A DNA stretch of 31,312 bases from a virus, in the IMG/VR virus record IMGVR_UViG_3300032157_000036, positions 1 to 31,312 of that record; one strand, written 5' to 3'. Shown in pieces: positions 21,001 to 30,826 of the stretch. The notes beneath the pieces were generated by a model. That model ran no database searches, had not been told where the DNA came from, and was given only the letters and a program-made list of their open reading frames with translations. The translations under genes were made by a program, and so were the position numbers. The stretch's first letter is position 1. Each line of letters starts with the position of its first letter.

Positions 21001-23250
21001 ATGCCACAGGCAATCCCGGTCGGGTTTATCTACGCCCTCGAAACTTTCGCCGTCAATTTCCTGATCAATGTCGCGCTAAACTACCTGGTCTCGTACGTCA
21101 CGAGGCCGCCGGAGCACGGCAGGCTTCCGGAAAACGTAACGATCCGGTCGACGGTTCCAGATCGACAGCTCATCGCCGGCGAGGCGCGGTCCGGTGGCGC
21201 GCTCGTCTATGCGAACACTTCGGGCACGAACAATAAGTATTTGTGGTTCGTAGTCGCGTACGCGAGCCACCAATGCAACGCGCTCAAGGATGCATGGCTC
21301 GACAGCGTCCGGATCCCCGCAGCCGACATAAACGGTACGACGGGCGCTGTCTCCACGGCCTCGTTCGACGGGAAGCTCAAGATCTGGGACCACCTGGGAA
21401 CAGGTGGCCAGGCCGTCGACTCGAACCTCGACGCCGAGTTCGCCGAGTGGACCTCGAACCATCGCCTGCAGGGGATCTGCTACCGCGTATTCCGCTTCCA
21501 GCGCAGTGACGATGCCTTCCCAGGCGGCGCTCCACAGAACTGCTCGAGCCGTGTCGAAGGATTCTTGTCCTACGATTCGCGCCTGGACTCGACGAACGGC
21601 GGATCCGGGTCGCACCGCCGCGACGATCCGAGCACGTGGTCGTACTCGAGGAACTGGGCGCGCAACATCCGCTGGTTCCTCTCCGGCGGCTCTGTGGTCA
21701 ACGATCAGACGACGCGGATCATTCGCTTCGGCGTCCAGGAGGCGGACAGCCGCATTGACGACGCCTTCTTTGCCGCGGCCGCGAACATCGCCGATCAGTC
21801 GCTCTCTGGCGGCAACGCGCCGCCGTCAGGGGCACAGGTGCGGTACACGCTCGACATGGTGTTCGCGTGCTCGGAGACGCGCCGCGACATCCTTGAGGAC
21901 ATGCTCGCCGCAGGCTTCGGCCAGCTCGTCAACCTGCACGGGAAGTGGCGGCTCTACGCCGGCGCCTACGATGCCCCGATTCACACCTTCACGCAGGACG
22001 ACCTCCACGGCGAGCTCGAGATCGAGGACACGAGCGGCGACGAGGACCGCTTCAATCAGATCAGCGGCGTTTACTTCGACGAAGAGAGGGAGTGGACCGA
22101 GCAGACGACGCCGGTTCGATCGAATTCTGCCTACGTGACGCAGGACGCTGGCAAGGAGATCCCGCGGCCGGACGTTCCGCTGCGCGGTTGCACCAACCAG
22201 TACCGGGCCCAGCGCATTCTCGAGCTGCAGCTGCGCCGCGCGCGCCAGATGCGGAAAGTGGTGTTCCGCTTCGGCCGACAGGGCATGAAGATCGCGCCCT
22301 GGGAAACCTTTTCCATGTCGCACACCCGGTACGGGTGGAGCAGCCGCGTCTTTCGATCGACGGAAAGAATGATCGAGCGCACCGACAGCGGTGGCGTGAT
22401 CGTCAAACACGTCGCGATTGCCGAGGCCTCGTCGATCTACACCGACCTCGTGACCGCGGACTACACCACGGGAACATCCGTCACGAATTCCCTGCAGAGC
22501 GAGCCGCCGGATCCGCCGACGGGGCTCACGGCGCTGACCGGCAACGGATACATTCAGTTCACGTGGTCGCTCGAACCTTTCTGGCTGCTGAACGGTACCG
22601 TGGAGCTCTGGCAGCACACCGCGAATACGCCGTTCGCGAGTGCGACGAAGATCTGGGAGGGAGCGGGCACGCTGGCGGTCATTCCGAAGACTGACCAGAC
22701 GACCGGCTACTACTGGGTCCGGGTGCGAGCGAAGGGCGGGCAGACCAGCACGACAGAACCACCGGGCAATGGGCTCGCCGGCGTCGCCTATAACCCGACG
22801 TTCGTCGCGCCTGTCGCCGACACGCCATCCGACGGCAACATCTCCTACGGCGCGGTGACGCAGCCGCAGGTCGAGGCCTCGGGGATCGGATCGCACATCA
22901 CGTACACGTCGCCGGCGAACGTGGCGACCCGCTGCATCGTGAACTTCGCGGGCCAAGCGAATATCTCGAACACGACGAGCGGCGGCGCGACCGGTTACGC
23001 ATTGATTGCGGTGACGGTGCAGGTCAACGGGTCGACGGTGTTTACCGCGTCGACCAGGCTCGAGGCGTGCCTCGCGGCAAACGACGCCTGGGGCGTTCTC
23101 GCCGGATCCAAGGCCTTCGACGTGCCTGCAGGCCAGGCGATCGACGTCTACCTCAGCACGGGCAGATCATTCTCGACGGGCGGCAGCAGCCCTGCACAGA
23201 CCATCTACCACCGTGCTTGTCACACGGAAATCTTGCCGACGAAGCAATAG
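21001..23250 (+). CDS. Tail tip / central fibre protein (J-like)
   Basis: A 749-residue protein following the cysteine-peptidase-like gene with no gap. Residues 1-35 are hydrophobic (FIYALETFAVNFLINVALNYLV), as in many gpJ-type proteins. Residues about 270-500 carry the tip module (RRDILEDMLAAGFGQLVNLHGKWRLY, RFNQISGVYFDEER, YRAQRILELQLRRARQMRKV). Residues about 500-600 form a fibronectin type III domain (PDPPTGLTALTGNGYIQFTW, YYWVRVRAKGG). The last 150 residues are a beta domain that may be the receptor-binding end. It is shorter than lambda J (1132 residues). Confidence 0.85.
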   Translation: MPQAIPVGFIYALETFAVNFLINVALNYLVSYVTRPPEHGRLPENVTIRSTVPDRQLIAGEARSGGALVYANTSGTNNKYLWFVVAYASHQCNALKDAWLDSVRIPAADINGTTGAVSTASFDGKLKIWDHLGTGGQAVDSNLDAEFAEWTSNHRLQGICYRVFRFQRSDDAFPGGAPQNCSSRVEGFLSYDSRLDSTNGGSGSHRRDDPSTWSYSRNWARNIRWFLSGGSVVNDQTTRIIRFGVQEADSRIDDAFFAAAANIADQSLSGGNAPPSGAQVRYTLDMVFACSETRRDILEDMLAAGFGQLVNLHGKWRLYAGAYDAPIHTFTQDDLHGELEIEDTSGDEDRFNQISGVYFDEEREWTEQTTPVRSNSAYVTQDAGKEIPRPDVPLRGCTNQYRAQRILELQLRRARQMRKVVFRFGRQGMKIAPWETFSMSHTRYGWSSRVFRSTERMIERTDSGGVIVKHVAIAEASSIYTDLVTADYTTGTSVTNSLQSEPPDPPTGLTALTGNGYIQFTWSLEPFWLLNGTVELWQHTANTPFASATKIWEGAGTLAVIPKTDQTTGYYWVRVRAKGGQTSTTEPPGNGLAGVAYNPTFVAPVADTPSDGNISYGAVTQPQVEASGIGSHITYTSPANVATRCIVNFAGQANISNTTSGGATGYALIAVTVQVNGSTVFTASTRLEACLAANDAWGVLAGSKAFDVPAGQAIDVYLSTGRSFSTGGSSPAQTIYHRACHTEILPTKQ

Positions 23251-23260
23251 GGAGATCCGA

Positions 23261-23764
23261 ATGAAACGAATCTGGCTGGCAGCGGCGCTGCTGGCGGGCC
23301 TCATTTCGCCCGCGTTTTCGTGTGATCTCACAGCCGGGCCGGGCGCAGTGGTGCGGCTCAGCGAGGGCAAGTCGGGCGGCCTGTTCACGATCGGCTGCGT
23401 CGCTCCGAAGTGGGAGATCCGCGCGTACTGGGTCGGTGAGCAACGCATTTACGACGGCCAGGTCGTGATCGACGGATTCCCAGCGCTGTCGGCTTCAAGG
23501 CTCTGGACGTTCCGCGAAGGAAAGCGGGTGCAGCCGATGCTGGGCGTCGGCCTCATGGTCAAGGGTTCGCAGCGTTGCCACTACAACGGTGACATGAGCT
23601 GCAATCGGCTGATGCCGCTGCCGTTCGGGTTTCTCGCGACCGCCGGCATCAAGGTGGGCGACGTTCTGTTCACGCTCGGACATGCGAGCAACTCAGGCCT
23701 GGATCACGGCGAAGAAAAGAAGAACCTCGGGCTCGACCACATCCGCGCTGAGGTGTGGTTCTGA
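23261..23764 (+). CDS. Exported PagL-like lipid A deacylase candidate
   Basis: A 167-residue protein with a Sec signal peptide (MKRIWLAAALLAGLISPAFS) behind GGGAGA. The mature chain alternates like an outer-membrane beta barrel and ends in a Trp-Phe strand (IRAEVWF). Near the C-terminus it has H141-A-S143-N144-S-G-L, then NLGLD with D159. This matches the H-x-S-N-x-G-L ... N-x-G-(I/L)-(D/E) pattern of PagL, whose catalytic His and Ser lie in that motif. PagL removes a 3-O acyl chain from lipid A in the outer membrane. The gene lies between the tail tip and lysis genes. Cys21 follows the cleavage site, but the preceding residues are not a good lipobox. Confidence 0.7.
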   Translation: MKRIWLAAALLAGLISPAFSCDLTAGPGAVVRLSEGKSGGLFTIGCVAPKWEIRAYWVGEQRIYDGQVVIDGFPALSASRLWTFREGKRVQPMLGVGLMVKGSQRCHYNGDMSCNRLMPLPFGFLATAGIKVGDVLFTLGHASNSGLDHGEEKKNLGLDHIRAEVWF

Positions 23765-24063
23765 TGCTCGAGAAGGACTGGCTCACCGCGCACTGGCCCG
23801 ACGTTGTCACGCTCGGCGTGCTGCCGCTAGTGATCTGGGTGGCGAAGCGGATCGTCGATCGTCACGACCGACGTCAGCTCGATCGTGCGGAGACGATCAG
23901 GCAACACGGCGAGCGCCTCGACGAGCTCGAGGGCGATCGCGTGAAGCGCACCGACCTCGAGGAAGTGCGCGAGTCACTCACACAGCAGATTGCAAATAAC
24001 CAGGAGCGCACCGAGGACCGGCTCGATCGGATCCTGTTGCACCTGGCCGGAGGTGGCCGATGA
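23764..24063 (+). CDS. Small membrane protein with coiled coil, candidate holin
   Basis: A 99-residue protein starting in a TGATG overlap. It has one membrane helix (about residues 16-30, VVTLGVLPLVIWVA) followed by a positively charged stop (KRIVDRHDRR) and a long charged coiled coil (40-90). It ends in an ATGA overlap with the endolysin gene. One-span proteins with this layout are found in lysis cassettes and may be holins, antiholins or accessory factors. A second, three-span holin candidate follows the endolysin. Confidence 0.65.
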   Translation: MLEKDWLTAHWPDVVTLGVLPLVIWVAKRIVDRHDRRQLDRAETIRQHGERLDELEGDRVKRTDLEEVRESLTQQIANNQERTEDRLDRILLHLAGGGR

Positions 24064-24596
24064 GTCTCACTCTCGAGCAGCTTCAGAAGTGCATTCCCGA
24101 CGCCGGCGAGCTCGTCCCGATCTACCTCGAGGCGCTCAATTCCGCGATGGCCGAGTTCGAGATATCGAACCTCGCGCGCCAGGCGACGTTCCTCGCGCAG
24201 ATCTGCCACGAGTCCGGGTCGCTCAAGTACGTCCGCGAGATCTGGGGGCCGACGGCCGCGCAGCTCGCCTACGAAGGTCGCGAGGACCTCGGCAACACGC
24301 AACAAGGCGACGGCCCGCGATTCAAAGGACGCGGACTGATCCAGATCACAGGGCGCAAGAACTATGAGGCGGTGTCGCTGGGGCTCGGGCGCAACGTAGT
24401 CAACGACTTCGCGTACCTCGAGACGCCGATCGGCGCCTCGCGTTCGGCCGCCTGGTTCTTTAAGACCCGCGGCTGCAACGTCTCCGCGGATCTCGGCAAC
24501 TTCTGGGACGTCTCGAAAACGATCAACGGCGGCACCAACGGTCTCAATGACCGCATTCGTCACTACGTCCGCATCCGGAGGGTGTTAGGTATATGA
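24060..24596 (+). CDS. Endolysin, glycoside hydrolase family 19
   Basis: A 178-residue chitinase-like (GH19) muramidase-type endolysin that cuts the peptidoglycan glycan chain. The first catalytic Glu is E51 in AQICHESGSL and the second is probably E60 in YVREIW. The RFKGRGLIQITGRKNY segment (87-102) is the family hallmark, and SRSAAWFFKTRGCN and TINGGTNGLNDR follow as expected. There is no signal peptide, so release from the cytoplasm would depend on a holin. Length is typical of single-domain phage GH19 enzymes. Confidence 0.92.
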   Translation: MSLTLEQLQKCIPDAGELVPIYLEALNSAMAEFEISNLARQATFLAQICHESGSLKYVREIWGPTAAQLAYEGREDLGNTQQGDGPRFKGRGLIQITGRKNYEAVSLGLGRNVVNDFAYLETPIGASRSAAWFFKTRGCNVSADLGNFWDVSKTINGGTNGLNDRIRHYVRIRRVLGI

Positions 24597-25018
24597 ACGA
24601 TCAGATCAACAACGCGAGCGGCGTCGCAACGCAGCTCACGAGCTTCATCCACGCAAACCCGATCCTCTCCCTTGTCATCGCGATCGTCCTGTGCAGCTGG
24701 ATGGGCACCGCTGCAATCAAGCAGTTCCTCGCACCTGGTCCGACACGCCGGCGGAAGCTCGTCGCGATCGACATCGCGATCGCCGCGGGGCTCTCTGCCC
24801 TTGTGCTCCATGACCATTTCCCTTGGGAGATCGTCGTTCTGCTCTGCCTTCTCTTCGGCTTCGGCAGCCCGTTCGCGTACTGGATCGTGGGCAGTCTCCT
24901 CTGCGCGTGGAAACCCGACCTGCGCAAATTCATGACGCTGAAGGAACTCGTACCTGAGCCGGAACCCGAAGCGCCGGCGTCTATCAATTCCGCGCATCCC
25001 CCTGGCGACACGCGGTGA
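24593..25018 (+). CDS. Three-span holin candidate
   Basis: A 141-residue protein starting in an ATGA overlap with the endolysin. It shows three membrane segments at about 24-43 (ILSLVIAIVLCSWMGTAAI), 56-73 (LVAIDIAIAAGLSALVL) and 79-103 (EIVVLLCLLFGFGSPFAYWIVG), with a charged loop TRRRK between the first two and a Pro/Glu-rich soluble tail (120-141). Three spans and the lysis-cassette position fit a class I holin. Two candidate holins in one cassette leave open which one sets lysis timing. Confidence 0.8.
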   Translation: MNDQINNASGVATQLTSFIHANPILSLVIAIVLCSWMGTAAIKQFLAPGPTRRRKLVAIDIAIAAGLSALVLHDHFPWEIVVLLCLLFGFGSPFAYWIVGSLLCAWKPDLRKFMTLKELVPEPEPEAPASINSAHPPGDTR

Positions 25019-25019
25019 A

Positions 25020-25469
25020 ATGACCTTCAGGGCGCCGCCGGCGTGGCTGCAGCGAATCCGCGGTCGCGACCAGGCGCGGCCGCGCAAGGCGAACTTCATC
25101 GGAGCGCCGGCGACGTTCCGCCTCGAGCTCGCCTGCCAACACCTCAATCGAGCATTCGGCGGGCACGGCTGCTATCACGTCGGCTCGTCTCGAGAGCGCA
25201 AGGATTGGCGCGACGTCGACGTCCGCATGATCCTCGAGGACGACGAGTTCGAGCGGCTGTTCCCCGACGCGGGCGAGAACTCGTGGGAATTCGATGCACG
25301 CTGGCTGATCCTGACCGTGGCGATCTCGGACTGGCTTTCGAAAGAGACAGGCCTGCCAATCGACTTCCAGTTTCAGAAGCGATCGCACGCCAACGAGCGG
25401 CATTCGAAGCCGCGCAATCCCGTCGGTTTGAACATGGCGCCGAAGAAAAAGCGCCGAAGGAAAGCATGA
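25020..25469 (+). CDS. Nucleotidyltransferase-fold phage protein
   Basis: A 149-residue protein starting one base after the holin stop. It carries HVGSSRERKDWRDVDVRM: G55-S56 followed by D65-V-D67, the hG[GS]...Dh[DE]h signature of the nucleotidyltransferase superfamily. A third acid may be D115 in GLPIDFQFQ. I recall similar GSS...DVDVR...GLP(I/V)DFQ proteins in other phages. Substrate unknown. The C-terminus is strongly basic (PKKKRRRKA). Its place inside a lysis cassette is unexpected. It ends in an ATGA overlap with Rz. Confidence 0.7.
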   Translation: MTFRAPPAWLQRIRGRDQARPRKANFIGAPATFRLELACQHLNRAFGGHGCYHVGSSRERKDWRDVDVRMILEDDEFERLFPDAGENSWEFDARWLILTVAISDWLSKETGLPIDFQFQKRSHANERHSKPRNPVGLNMAPKKKRRRKA

Positions 25470-26038
25470 TGTTCAACTTCATCACGACGAAGCTGCTGCT
25501 CTGGGTATGCGCCGGCCTCGTGGCTGCGCTGGTGGTGACTGGCTCGTTCGCTGGCTGCGAGCATCACAACGCTCAGGCCGCGCGCGCCGACCGCGACGCC
25601 ATGAAATCCCAGCGCGACACCGCCAGGCGCGATCGCGCCGAGGTCATCAAGGCGAACGAGTCTCAGCAGGAAACGATCGACGCGCAGAGCAAGGCGCTCG
25701 ATGAGTGGCTGAAGATCGGTGTGACGCCTGAAGAAGTCGAGGATCTTGTCGCCGGCGTGCGAGCGAAGAAGGCCGAGCTCGAGCAGCTCGTCGCGGAAAA
25801 CCAGAAACGGAAGGAGATGGACAATGCGAACCCCGACTGCGATCGCCTGCGCCAGGTTGACTTCGAGTCTGTGTGCCGCAATCGCGCTCGCGTCCTGCGC
25901 GGATACGAGCATCGTCTATCGGGACAAACCGGTCCCGGTCCCGACGCCAGTGTACGTGGCACTCCCTCCGGAGCTGCTCGAGCTGCGCTACCCGCGGTTT
26001 CTCTATCCGGCGGGCCGGATGCCGGTCGGAGCCCTTGA
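25466..26038 (+). CDS. i-spanin (Rz-like)
   Basis: A 190-residue inner-membrane spanin. It starts ATGATG, so the first or second ATG may be used (GAAGGA lies 5-8 bases upstream). One membrane helix covers about residues 9-29, then a long charged periplasmic coiled coil runs to about 120 (RADRDAMKSQRDTARRDRAE, VRAKKAELEQLVAENQK). The last 70 residues, which are coded in the stretch shared with Rz1, are Pro/Gly/Arg-rich and less regular, as expected for overlapping reading. It should pair with the lipoprotein coded inside its 3' half to fuse the two membranes at lysis. Confidence 0.85.
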   Translation: MMFNFITTKLLLWVCAGLVAALVVTGSFAGCEHHNAQAARADRDAMKSQRDTARRDRAEVIKANESQQETIDAQSKALDEWLKIGVTPEEVEDLVAGVRAKKAELEQLVAENQKRKEMDNANPDCDRLRQVDFESVCRNRARVLRGYEHRLSGQTGPGPDASVRGTPSGAARAALPAVSLSGGPDAGRSP

Positions 26039-26129
26039 GGACAAGGTCGAGTCGCTCGAGCTCGCGCTCGGCATGTGCAACAACGACAAAGAGCTGATCC
26101 GCGCGAAACAGCCGAAGGACCCGAAGTGA
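25824..26129 (+). CDS. o-spanin lipoprotein (Rz1-like), overlapping Rz
   Basis: A 101-residue lipoprotein in the +1 frame relative to Rz, starting within it and running 91 bases beyond its stop. The start ATG 25824 has AAGGAG at 25811-25816, seven bases upstream. The lipobox is L-A-S-C25, followed by a proline-rich stretch (KPVPVPTPVYVALPPE) that is typical of Rz1. At 101 residues it is longer than lambda Rz1 (60). The C-terminal part (EDKVESLELALGMCNNDKE) is helical and may contact the Rz coiled coil. An outer-membrane partner confirms a Gram-negative host. Confidence 0.9.
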   Translation: MRTPTAIACARLTSSLCAAIALASCADTSIVYRDKPVPVPTPVYVALPPELLELRYPRFLYPAGRMPVGALEDKVESLELALGMCNNDKELIRAKQPKDPK

Positions 26130-26452
26130 AGCTCACTGAGTTGGAGCCGCGCTGGATCCTGAAAGATGGCGAACGCATCGGAATCGTCTTTCGGTGCCCG
26201 CATTGTCTGGGTCCCGATCCGGCGTTGGTCACGTGCTACTCGAAATCGCCCGGCGGCTTAGGCGACCAGTACCGAGTGTTGGTTGATCTCATTCCCGACG
26301 TGGAAGAGCGCTGCGACGTGATTCCGTGTAAGCGGGACTATTCGTGGACGTTTGTCGGCGACAGTTTTGAAACGCTGAGTATCACTCCATCGCTGGACGC
26401 AAGCGCCAGCGGACATTGGCACGGCCACGTGACGGCAGGCGAGATCCGTTGA
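26126..26452 (+). CDS. DUF6527-like putative zinc protein
   Basis: A 108-residue protein starting at GTG 26126 in a GTGA overlap with Rz1. It has LTELEPRW at the N-terminus, a Cys pair in VFRCPHC (C24, C27), W-x-F-x-GDSFETLSITPSLD in the middle and GHWHGHVTAGEI at the C-terminus. The CPxC, G-x-FexLs(I/L)tPS and final His-rich GxI strand match what I recall of DUF6527, a small family found in phages and some bacterial conflict loci. Metal binding is likely. Function unknown. Confidence 0.65.
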   Translation: MKLTELEPRWILKDGERIGIVFRCPHCLGPDPALVTCYSKSPGGLGDQYRVLVDLIPDVEERCDVIPCKRDYSWTFVGDSFETLSITPSLDASASGHWHGHVTAGEIR

Positions 26453-26499
26453 CGTCAGCGGAATCACAGTAGTCGACGGCCGTCGGAACTGGATGGACG

Positions 26500-26721
26500 A
26501 TGGTGCTGGGCGAGATCCAGAATCGGCGCACGATGCCGCCGCTCACGTTCACCGCAGAAGAGTATCGAAGCGCCGCGCAGGCCTGCCGCGCGCTGGCGTA
26601 TCAGCACGAACAAGACGCGCTGAAGCAGTCAAACCCTTCCGTAGCGGCCACCATCAACGCGTCGGCGCGATACTTCAGCGACCTCGCTCAGAAGTATGAA
26701 CTCGCAGCAAAGTGGTTATGA
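26500..26721 (+). CDS. Small hypothetical protein
   Basis: A 73-residue soluble protein, probably a helical hairpin (TAEEYRSAAQACRALAYQHEQ; then SVAATINASARYFSDLAQKYELAAKWL). ATG 26500 is used here; ATG 26533 (MPPLTF) is an alternative and would leave 62 residues. It is the last + strand gene, and its 3' end overlaps the convergent gene at 26716-27036 by six bases. I do not recognise a family. Confidence 0.5.
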   Translation: MVLGEIQNRRTMPPLTFTAEEYRSAAQACRALAYQHEQDALKQSNPSVAATINASARYFSDLAQKYELAAKWL

Positions 26722-27664: not shown

Positions 27665-28147
27665 TTAGAGCAACCCCCGTTCGGCGAAGGAGCAGGTCCC
27701 CTTCAGGCCGATGATGATGTGATCGAGCACGCGCACGTCGATCAGCGCCAGCGCATCGCGCAGGCGGCGGGTGATCAACTCGTCGGCCTGTGACGGCTCG
27801 GCCACACCGCTCGGGTGGTTGTGCGCGAAGATCACCGCGGCCGCGCCGGCGTACAGCGCCAGCTTCGCGACCTCGCGGGGGTGCACGCTCGCGCCGTCGA
27901 TCGTTCCGCGGAACATCTCGTCGACGCTGATCACGCGATGCCGGTTGTCCAGCAGCACGACCACGAACACTTCGTAGTCGCGGCCGCCGAGGACCTCGCG
28001 CAGGAAGCTCACCACTGCGCCGGGCGCGTTGGCCGACGGGCGAGTCTTATTGATTTCAGCAAGCTGGTACTTGCCGTGGATTTCCGCGACTTCCGCGGGC
28101 GTTGCCACCCGGTACCGCGAGCCAGTCTTCACCATCAGTTTTTGCAT
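27665..28147 (-). CDS. RadC-like JAB/JAMM protein
   Basis: A 160-residue protein of the RadC (MPN/JAB) family. The start ATG (complement of 28145-28147) has AAAGGAG seven bases upstream. The metal-binding motif is complete: E77 in [10 protein letters not shown], then H109-N-H111, S119 and D122 in [15 protein letters not shown]. The family fold is metalloprotease-like, but the role of RadC proteins is unsettled; phage and island copies are common. The longer frame upstream is not supported by a ribosome site. The N-terminal 40 residues are basic and family-typical domain sequence starts near [13 protein letters not shown]. Confidence 0.88.
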
Positions 28148-28207
28148 TGCCTTGCTCCTTTGAGCCGGTCTTTTCACCGCGCTGGGGGATTCCAGCTGGT
28201 AAGTGGA

Positions 28208-28235
28208 AGTATACAGGACATTCTGTCCTATGCAA
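28208..28235 (-). promoter_or_regulatory. Leftward promoter with operator-like dyad in spacer
   Basis: Read on the - strand: TTGCAT (28230-28235) as -35, a 16-base spacer and TATACT (28208-28213) as -10, which matches five of six consensus bases. The spacer contains the perfect dyad AGGACA-GAA-TGTCCT (28215-28229) and just one more base. The RadC-like start lies about 55 bases downstream of the predicted transcription start. The position is ideal for a repressor that blocks RNA polymerase. Confidence 0.6.
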
Positions 28236-28242
28236 CTCTCTT

Positions 28243-29019
28243 TTATAGCCCTCCGCGGTTGACGCCAAACACCGCTGGTCCGAGTCCCATCCGCATCGCC
28301 AACTTCCAGCACCGGCGCCGGACCTGGTCCTGCAATCGGAACCAGAGCCGGCGGAGCCTGAGCCGGGACGGCAGGCTGTACACCGCCGTCCGCTGTGCCT
28401 CGATGGTCGACGGCACGGTGTAGCTGGTGACCGGGTGCTGGTAGAGGCCGAGATTCGGCAGCGATCCCCACCAGGTCTGATCCATGACGTCGTCGACTGG
28501 GCCGCGGACCTCCCGCATGTGCTGGAACAGCTTGTGCGCGCCGGCGCGCGTGAGCAGGTACGCCTGAGAGCCGAGCGCGTATCCGAGGTAATGGGTCACA
28601 TAGCGGCCGAGCAGCTCGCCCTTGTAGATCTGGGGCGGCCAGGCCGTCGACGCCAGACGCAGGTATTGGATGCAGTTCGCCTCGAAGTTGTGCCGGGCCA
28701 CATCCTCGAGGAAACCCCAGTCAACGAGCGTGTCGTCCTCGAGGACGATCAGCTGATCGTCCTCGCTGGCCAGGAACTCGAGCCAGACCTTCGTATGGCT
28801 GCTGTAACAGCCGAGCTCGCCGCGCGTGAGCGGGCGGCCGCGACGGACGATGACCTCGTCCTCGTCATACGTCAGGTGCGAGGCGAGCTCGGTGCAAGCG
28901 TCGAAGAAACGCCACGGCAGGGACGCGCCTGCTGCTCGCTCCCGGAAACTCACCCGCCGATCCGTGTCCGTGACACGGCTGATCACCCGCACCATGGTGC
29001 GGACTTTTCGAGCATTCAT
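28243..29019 (-). CDS. Family 25 glycosyltransferase (LPS type)
   Basis: A 258-residue GT25 protein. It has the [11 protein letters not shown] start, FFDAC, then [16 protein letters not shown] (64-79), the LIVLEDDTL acidic motif (E94-D95-D96) that binds metal and sugar nucleotide, and [11 protein letters not shown] near residue 175. GT25 enzymes add hexoses to lipo-oligosaccharide or LPS core at the inner face of the membrane. ATG at 29019 or 28995 may be the start; the second would place the family N-terminus directly at MVRVISRV. In a phage this is most likely a lysogenic conversion gene that changes the receptor surface; that role is inference. Confidence 0.85.
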
Positions 29020-29296: not shown

Positions 29297-30826
29297 TTAA
29301 GCCCGCTTCGCCAGCGCCACGGGCAGAATCAGACCCTGTGTCTCACCCTCGGATAGCCCTGGGGACGCCACAGATCGCCACAGCTCGTTAGGTGAGCTTT
29401 TTCGGCGTAGCTGGATCTGACAATTCAAGTCCGGTTCTAGCACTACACGATCGACGAGGGTCCGGACCACCCTCGTCGTGTCCTGTGATTCCAAAACTGT
29501 GCGCAGCTCCTCAATCCCCATGGTCTTGAGACCTGATTCGGCGGCGTTCTCGCGTTGCACCGCAGCAAGTTCGCGCTGCAGGGCCGAGATCTGCCGGCTG
29601 CGCTGCTCGACGACCTGGGCGTAAACGCCGGGCGCCTCGGACGCCACCGCGGCCTCGGCGGCGCGCTGGCGCTCACGCTCGAGCCGGCGGATCTGTGCGG
29701 TGATGTCGTGACCAGGCTCGGCTGGCTTCTCGTCCCGGCGCGCCAGCTCGAGCAGCCAGGCGAGATATCGATCGCTGGTGCGGAAGGCCTGCAGGGTGCC
29801 GATCACGGCCTGGTCGAGCTCAGAGGCGCGCACGATGCGGCCAGGGAGATCACAGCTGCGGCGCAGGCGGTAGTGATGCCCGTGGCCCTTCCAGACGCGG
29901 CCGTCGGTCGAATAGACGAGACCCGACAGCAGGAAGCTCGAAGCCGCTGCACGGGCCCGGCGGATCGCGGCGCCCATGTTCGAATTTTCGAGCTGGGCAA
30001 GGATCGTCTCCGCCTCACGCTCGGTGATCAGGGCGGGATGCGTGTCCCGCTGTACCTGCCACTCCTCGCGCAGCCGACGCTTCCTTCCGGATCCTGAGTC
30101 GCCGTGGCGATTCCACACCGTGTGCCCGGCGTAAACGAGAGCGTTCCATTCCACATCGATCAGCGAGTTCTCGGCCATGGCCAGGCCCGCCATATTCCGA
30201 GCCACCGTGCGCGGTACGCCGCGCGCGCGGCCGCGCAGGAACGCGCGCACCTGGTGGGAGATCTCCGATGGCTCGAGCTTAGACTTCGTCACAGGCCGGC
30301 CGTCTCGGATGCCGCCGGTCGCCTGATGCGCCAGACGGTATCCCACCGGCGCGCGGCCGCCGGCGCGCCAGCCCTGACGGACGTTCTCGGCCATGCCGGC
30401 GAGGCCCTTCTTCCGCGACATCATCGAATGGACTTCGTCCATCGCCTCGAACGCCGAGTCGAGCATCACTTCGGAAATCGGATCGATGTCAGCCGGGCGC
30501 GTTACGTAGTGCAACGTGATGTTACGTTTCTTGAGCTCGCGCTTGAACGCGTGCGCGATGTGGCGGCCGCGGGCGATGCGGCTGGTGTCGTACACCAGCA
30601 GGTGTGACCAGGTGCGCGCCGGATCCTTGATCGCCTGGGCCAGCGCCTGGAATCCGGGCCGGTCCTCAGTGGCGCCGGAGACGACGACGTCCTCAAACCT
30701 CTCGACGATGGACAGCGAGCGCGAGCTCGCGAGCTGCTCCAGTGCCGTGCTCTGCGCCTGGATCGAGATCTCGGAGCGGTCCTTGCTGCTGCGGGCGTAA
30801 CTCGCTGCCTGTTGTTCTTTTCGCAT
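29297..30826 (-). CDS. int: Large serine recombinase (phage integrase)
   Basis: A 509-residue site-specific serine integrase that catalyses integration at attP/attB. Residues 7-150 are the resolvase domain: SYARSSKD with S14 at the catalytic position of YxRxS and YDTSRIARGRH (80-90) with the active-site Arg residues. Residues about 155-285 form the recombinase domain (AENVRQGWRAGGRAPVGYRL). Residues 296-340 align with the zinc ribbon (SSFLLSGLVYSTDGRVW, then RSCDLPGR, ASELDQAV), but the first Cys pair is missing. A coiled coil covers about 380-440. GGGAG stands seven bases before the ATG. The attachment site is not identifiable here. Confidence 0.93.
   Translation of the reverse strand: MRKEQQAASYARSSKDRSEISIQAQSTALEQLASSRSLSIVERFEDVVVSGATEDRPGFQALAQAIKDPARTWSHLLVYDTSRIARGRHIAHAFKRELKKRNITLHYVTRPADIDPISEVMLDSAFEAMDEVHSMMSRKKGLAGMAENVRQGWRAGGRAPVGYRLAHQATGGIRDGRPVTKSKLEPSEISHQVRAFLRGRARGVPRTVARNMAGLAMAENSLIDVEWNALVYAGHTVWNRHGDSGSGRKRRLREEWQVQRDTHPALITEREAETILAQLENSNMGAAIRRARAAASSFLLSGLVYSTDGRVWKGHGHHYRLRRSCDLPGRIVRASELDQAVIGTLQAFRTSDRYLAWLLELARRDEKPAEPGHDITAQIRRLERERQRAAEAAVASEAPGVYAQVVEQRSRQISALQRELAAVQRENAAESGLKTMGIEELRTVLESQDTTRVVRTLVDRVVLEPDLNCQIQLRRKSSPNELWRSVASPGLSEGETQGLILPVALAKRA

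Follow-up and report, generated by a model that had tools for sequence, protein, structure and literature searches.

In phages of Gram-negative bacteria, lysis is described as the breaching of three layers, by the holin, the endolysin and the spanin. If the operon of these genes also encoded an enzyme that remodels the lipid A of LPS, lysis or the protection of the progeny would gain a lipid-directed step, and induction of the prophage could be tied to the release of vesicles. What PagL removes is a single buried acyl chain; the core and the O-antigen, which are the usual LPS receptors, stay intact. Its activity has been reported to promote vesiculation and membrane fluidity, and its action to produce cone-shaped lipid A (PMC10295235; PMC8876380); host PagL has also been reported to confer peptide resistance (PMC8876380). 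LpxR, a lipid A 3′-O-deacylase, is a 12-stranded protein of 319 amino acids having a Ca-dependent site (PMC6863877). In the literature searched, which comprised open-licence papers only, we found no description of a phage-encoded PagL, and we take this as weak evidence of novelty.

The PagL-like gene and its place ahead of the lysis genes

We analysed a window of 31,312 bases, which is the IMG/VR virus record IMGVR_UViG_3300032157_000036. It carries terminase, portal, head protease, major head, tape-measure and tail genes, and the features relevant to this study are as follows.

21001 to 23250, plus strand: J-like tail-tip/receptor-binding gene (PF13550, 5.9e-7; phrog_5616, 4.4e-79; phrog_31, central tail fiber J, 5e-31)
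23250 to 23254, plus strand: Shine-Dalgarno sequence GGGAG, 6 bases before the ATG of the PagL-like gene, read directly
23261 to 23764, plus strand: PagL-like gene, ATG to TGA, 167 amino acids; candidate lipid A/LPS acyl-ester hydrolase, predicted to be an exported 8-stranded outer-membrane barrel
23261 to 23320, plus strand: signal peptide MKRIWLAAALLAGLISPAFS, residues 1–20, with the SPase I cut predicted before Cys21; read from the sequence
23681 to 23737, plus strand: putative catalytic motif H141-x-S143-N144-x-G-L...N155-x-G-L-D159, aligned with H126/S128/N129...N136/G138/E140 of 2ERV with a 4-residue insertion
23764 to 24063, plus strand: small gene with a single TM segment and a coiled coil (phrog_462, 6.1e-7), whose start overlaps the PagL-like stop (TGATG)
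24060 to 24596, plus strand: endolysin, GH19-like (phrog_181 endolysin, 1.7e-58)
24593 to 25018, plus strand: holin-like protein with about three hydrophobic segments, from hydropathy; a related protein is at the same place in L084; no family match
25469 to 26038, plus strand: i-spanin (N-terminal TM, coiled coil), 40% identical to an i-spanin-like ORF in L083
25824 to 26129, plus strand: o-spanin (lipobox ALASC, proline-rich), overlapping the i-spanin gene, from sequence features
29297 to 30826, minus strand: integrase (phrog_95, 5.6e-41; also matches the DNA invertase phrog_125)

We confirmed that 23261–23764 is a real gene. The open reading frame is preceded by a Shine-Dalgarno sequence, and the signal peptide, the H-x-S-N-x-G-L...N-x-G-L-D motif and the aromatic C-terminus that the initial annotation had described are all present, with H141 and S143 correctly numbered. 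The C-terminal strand ends in ...EVWF (aromatic C-terminus VWF), and the four cysteines are at positions 21, 46, 106 and 114. A lipoprotein reading of the protein was rejected, because the Pro at position −4 relative to Cys21 is incompatible with a lipobox.

The gene order is tail-tip J, PagL-like gene, small TM/coiled-coil gene, GH19-type endolysin, 3-TM holin-like gene and spanin pair. The PagL-like gene had been placed between the tail tip and the holin; it does lie between the tail tip and the lysis genes, but the holin is not directly adjacent, as the TM/coiled-coil and endolysin genes intervene. The spanin pair (25469–26129) was identified by sequence features and relatives and has no family annotation. 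The genes following the PagL-like gene overlap start and stop in the same way as the TGATG junction, and from this coupling the PagL-like protein is probably translated with the lysis genes. The late expression proposed earlier thus gained support from translational coupling, and late co-expression with the lysis genes is likely in both the window phage and its relative described below. A scan of 22800–26600 revealed no promoter-like site, such scans being weak evidence. The integrase indicates that the window phage is temperate. Elsewhere on the minus strand, the ORF at 28243–29019 is weakly similar to glucosyltransferase families of phages (phrog_2835, 7e-11), and that at 27665–28471 has, by eye, an HNHPSG motif (RadC/JAB-like).

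We sought relatives in 44 records found through the terminase, many of them partial, and the PagL-like gene was present in one of these (L083:5965-6468 in IMGVR_UViG_3300049023_000059), where it encodes a 64% identical protein retaining the motif H, S, N, G, N, G and D as well as all four cysteines. Between the two genes dN is 0.32, dS 1.01 (near saturation) and dN/dS about 0.3. The terminases of the two phages are 82% identical, the J proteins about 30%, and the endolysin of L083 is of another type. As in the window, a TGATG overlap joins the end of the L083 gene to a small TM/coiled-coil gene that precedes the lysis genes. In the L004/L084 phage, whose J is 58% identical to that of the window, the PagL-like gene is absent, and in L084 J is followed at once by a TM/coiled-coil gene, an endolysin gene and a holin-like gene. 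From its presence in L083 and absence from L084, we concluded that the PagL-like gene is an accessory at the J–lysis junction. A pattern scan gave no J relatives. An extra small ORF (C-terminal part MPKLKDLADVAANPELL...), absent from the window, lies between J and the PagL-like gene in L083 (5139-5951). Overlapping spanin pairs similar to that of the window were also seen in L083 (10194-10815) and L084 (8054-8545).

Similarity to PagL in motif, profile and predicted fold

The 167-amino acid protein had no family match in Pfam, PHROGs or NCBIfam at the thresholds used, and direct homology searches of PDB sequences and of the phage, plasmid and genome_contigs collections were empty. The PagL family, PF09411, gave no match at E ≤ 1 (its gathering threshold of 23 bits was not reached), and there was no Ail/Lom match in Pfam. 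Matches to integrin-EGF (E 0.11) and polyketide synthase (E 0.58) were discarded as chance.

The evidence for a relationship with PagL comes from the catalytic end of the protein. We used the PagL of Pseudomonas aeruginosa as 2erv_A (sequence check: 150/150 identical). The active site H126-Y-S128-N129-A-G-L-K-Q-P-N136-D-G-I-E140 of this protein can be matched by column to the window motif, which in full reads H141-A-S143-N-S-G-L-D-H-G-E-E-K-K-N155-L-G-L-D159. The H-x-S-N site is present (H141-A-S143-N144 versus H126-Y-S128-N129) and invariant in the relative, and a third acid after N-x-G-x is present as D159, which aligns with Glu140 of PagL, with Asp for Glu and the 4-residue insertion between them. 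The 2ERV residues aligned with H141, S143 and D159 are the established catalytic triad of PagL, Glu140 being its third member. We screened 4,567 six-frame ORFs of at least 90 amino acids, from the window and 102 loci not selected by motif, with the pattern H.SN.G.{2,12}N.G.[DE]; the only matches were the window gene and its single relative, which is present as two overlapping loci belonging to one record, and the motif is therefore not a chance occurrence.

Profile comparisons by hhalign were consistent with this alignment. The two-sequence profile reached a probability of 90.8% (E 1.2e-6) against PagL, and of 94.8% (E 5e-8, full length) against a larger PagL set. Because the signal peptide contributes to the full-length score, a fairer figure is that for the mature protein, 77.4% (E 2e-5), whose similarity is confined to the last 44–50 residues at the catalytic end. 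The reversed sequence scored 0.1%, and Lom, OmpX, OmpA, PagP and OmpW scored 0.3–18%, the 18% being that of OmpW and largely due to the signal peptide; with the mature protein, these five small barrels reached at most 1.4%. Taken alone, Pseudomonas PagL gave a weak score (26%; mature, 15%) and the divergent phage PagL gave 70%. When the PagL HMM was run at full sensitivity, the window protein and its relative ranked first and second among the background ORFs (11.8 and 11.7 bits), the best unrelated ORF having 8.6. At the level of sequence profiles, the similarity to PagL is real but distant. We call the protein PagL-like, and not PagL, because of this distance and because the PF09411 cut-off was missed.

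Next, we considered the predicted fold. AF2 on the two natural sequences yielded eight strands at pLDDT 54.9; this model best matched NspA, PagP, OmpA and other small barrels, whereas PagL came 44th in the Foldseek list and 12th (Z 10.7) in that of VIA-align. With 19 sequences, of which 17 were added PagL-type ones, pLDDT was 75.5 and pTM 0.67, with eight main strands, the seventh of which has H141 and S143 at its end. The signal-peptide region forms a helix (residues 2–14) in the AF2 models. For the 19-sequence model, Foldseek ranked 2ERV second (E 9e-4), and VIA-align gave Z 14.6 with an rmsd of 1.9 Å over 116 residues at 19% identity, the lowest rmsd among the natural barrels in its list; by Z, NspA, OmpA and OmpW fit about as well. 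As its alignment included PagL sequences, the resemblance of this model to PagL is in part circular, and it supports compatibility with the PagL fold rather than proving identity. On these predictions we hold, with moderate confidence, that the protein is an exported 8-stranded outer-membrane barrel. The PagL-type identity first proposed from the sequence is thus supported by the motif alignment, by profile–profile comparison with controls and by structure prediction, which returned the expected 8-stranded barrel at moderate confidence (pLDDT 75.5), but not to the level of the PF09411 model.

PagL-type genes in other phages and prophages

A scan of IMG/VR for the motif with PagL spacing gave at least 120 stretches, and the matches listed were mostly PagL of Pseudomonas prophages. 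With the window protein's own spacing, nine stretches were obtained, the sole real one being the known relative. The Pseudomonas prophage proteins scored about 148 bits under PF09411 (two tested), and those compared were 68–72% identical to 2ERV. A tested phage marker was found within 4 kb of 59 of the 104 Pseudomonas-type PagL loci listed; all these marker matches shared the strand of the PagL gene, NinB, NinG or phrog_3373 lying upstream of it and a holin or small terminase (terS) downstream. Examples of bona fide prophage PagL are L122:3653-4165, L113:1980-2525, L148:2821-3336, L130 and L115, besides about 100 more IMG/VR loci. The family phrog_15758, which matches Pseudomonas prophage PagL, is still labelled as of unknown function. 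The public phage collection gave no clear PagL match (a single one, at E 0.6), as against more than 100 IMG/VR loci with PagL.

Divergent PagL-like proteins with Asp as the third residue are encoded on other viral contigs (L118:6745-7233, L156:2970-3449, L157:6212-6631, L167:852-1280, L182:4729-5184 and L234:5992-6420). Most of the divergent phage proteins having H-x-S-N-x-G...N-x-G-x-D pass PF09411, with 32–47 bits, and Asp is therefore accepted as the third residue within PagL-family proteins. In L182, a tail-fibre gene and an endolysin gene flank the PagL-like gene, which is on the opposite strand. One of these contigs also has a T7-type amidase gene, and in some the PagL-like gene is near a tail-fibre or endolysin gene. 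For several of the divergent proteins, no obvious signal peptide is seen at the N-terminus of the longest ORF.

Proposed role and comparison with known systems

From the gene, its conserved motif, its coupling to the lysis genes and the predicted PagL-like barrel, we infer catalysis, substrate, timing and benefit as follows. We give about an even chance to the window protein being a divergent phage PagL-type outer-membrane hydrolase, which would be made late and would remove an acyl ester from lipid A, aiding lysis. The signal peptide would direct the protein to the periplasm, where the BAM machinery would take over and fold it into the outer membrane as an 8-stranded barrel. A His-Ser-acid triad of H141, S143 and D159, with N144 as a candidate for the oxyanion hole, would then split off an acyl chain that is attached to lipid A by an ester bond (3-O type). 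Made late, from an operon shared with the endolysin, holin-like and spanin genes, the protein would de-acylate cell-surface LPS just before and during lysis. The outer membrane, loosened and curved through more vesiculation and weaker packing, might then undergo spanin-driven rupture, and release the progeny, faster or more completely. Such loosening for the spanin step and progeny release is the most likely use of deacylation. The recurrence of PagL-type genes near lysis genes, in Pseudomonas prophages and in L182, and the reported effects of PagL on vesiculation and fluidity speak for this reading, whereas the absence of the gene from the L004/L084 phage speaks against it. As a spanin pair is encoded, the PagL-like protein would be an extra and not a missing outer-membrane step; a role as sole disruptor of the outer membrane was rejected on account of the i-spanin/o-spanin pair at 25469–26129, and a necessary role in lysis is unlikely given that the pair is complete. 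The outer-membrane weakening suggested in the initial annotation accordingly could not be the only route to rupture.

Other uses of the gene are suggested by its position. It directly follows the J-like receptor-binding gene and precedes the lysis genes, the L182 gene abuts a tail-fibre gene, and the gene is an accessory found in some relatives only, all of which would agree with LPS deacylation at lysis altering the receptor or surface of the dying cell, vesicles and debris, so that progeny re-adsorption and superinfection are reduced. However, PagL chemistry would not touch the core and O-antigen receptors, and the PagL-like proteins are 64% identical against about 30% for the J pair, which indicates that the gene is not tied to one receptor-binding protein; we therefore regard this reading as unlikely. 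The same position is that of lambda lom, which directly follows J, and NspA and OmpA match the predicted small outer-membrane barrel as well as PagL does. A Lom-like, non-catalytic 8-stranded barrel, made in lysogens and altering adhesion, serum resistance or superinfection, is nevertheless a still less probable reading, since the protein has no profile similarity to Lom (0.5%; 0.3% mature) and no Ail/Lom Pfam match, Lom is without H.SN, the L083 relative retains H, S, N and D unchanged, and no promoter-like site was seen upstream.

Expression from the prophage could also convert the lysogen, the enzyme changing its lipid A to give peptide resistance, immune stealth or phage exclusion. The window phage carries an integrase, and peptide resistance has been reported for host PagL (PMC8876380). 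This was earlier held to be as likely as a lysis role; we lowered that estimate and consider it the least probable of these alternatives, as the gene is part of a compact late operon in which no promoter-like site was seen, and Pseudomonas prophage PagL also lies in the Nin/Q-to-holin/terminase stretch. Returning to a role in lysis, we tentatively suggest, as a doubtful generalization, that PagL-type deacylases may have been acquired repeatedly and independently as accessories of the lysis modules in this siphophage group, in Pseudomonas lambda-like prophages and in some other phages, where LPS remodelling beside holin, endolysin and spanin would alter the outer membrane at lysis.

Among known systems, PagL (2ERV, Pseudomonas aeruginosa; PF09411) shares with the window protein a signal peptide, a similar mature length (150 versus 147 amino acids), an 8-stranded barrel (predicted in our case), conserved glycine positions and, where the last hairpin begins, the motif H-x-S-N-x-G-[IL]...N-x-G-x-acid. 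Unlike PagL, the window protein has about 20% identity outside the motif, 4 extra residues between H-x-S-N and N-x-G, Asp in place of Glu as the third residue and four cysteines (21, 46, 106 and 114); it scores below PF09411, and its gene is in a phage lysis operon. LpxR is also an outer-membrane lipid A deacylase, as the window protein is a candidate to be, but assignment to LpxR was rejected, 167 amino acids and 8 predicted strands standing against about 320 amino acids and 12 strands. Lambda Lom (Ail/Lom/OmpX barrels) is alike in its position after J and as a small outer-membrane barrel (predicted here), but is without the catalytic motif and has no sequence similarity. The phage and prophage PagL-type proteins differ in their 10-residue H-to-N spacing and their scores under PF09411 (32–149 bits, those scanned), and are not BLAST neighbours of the window protein. 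Like it, however, the prophage PagL and the divergent PagL-like proteins (L118, L156, L157, L167, L182 and L234) are phage-encoded, several of their genes adjoin lysis genes, and the divergent ones share with the window protein the Asp of N-x-G-x-D.
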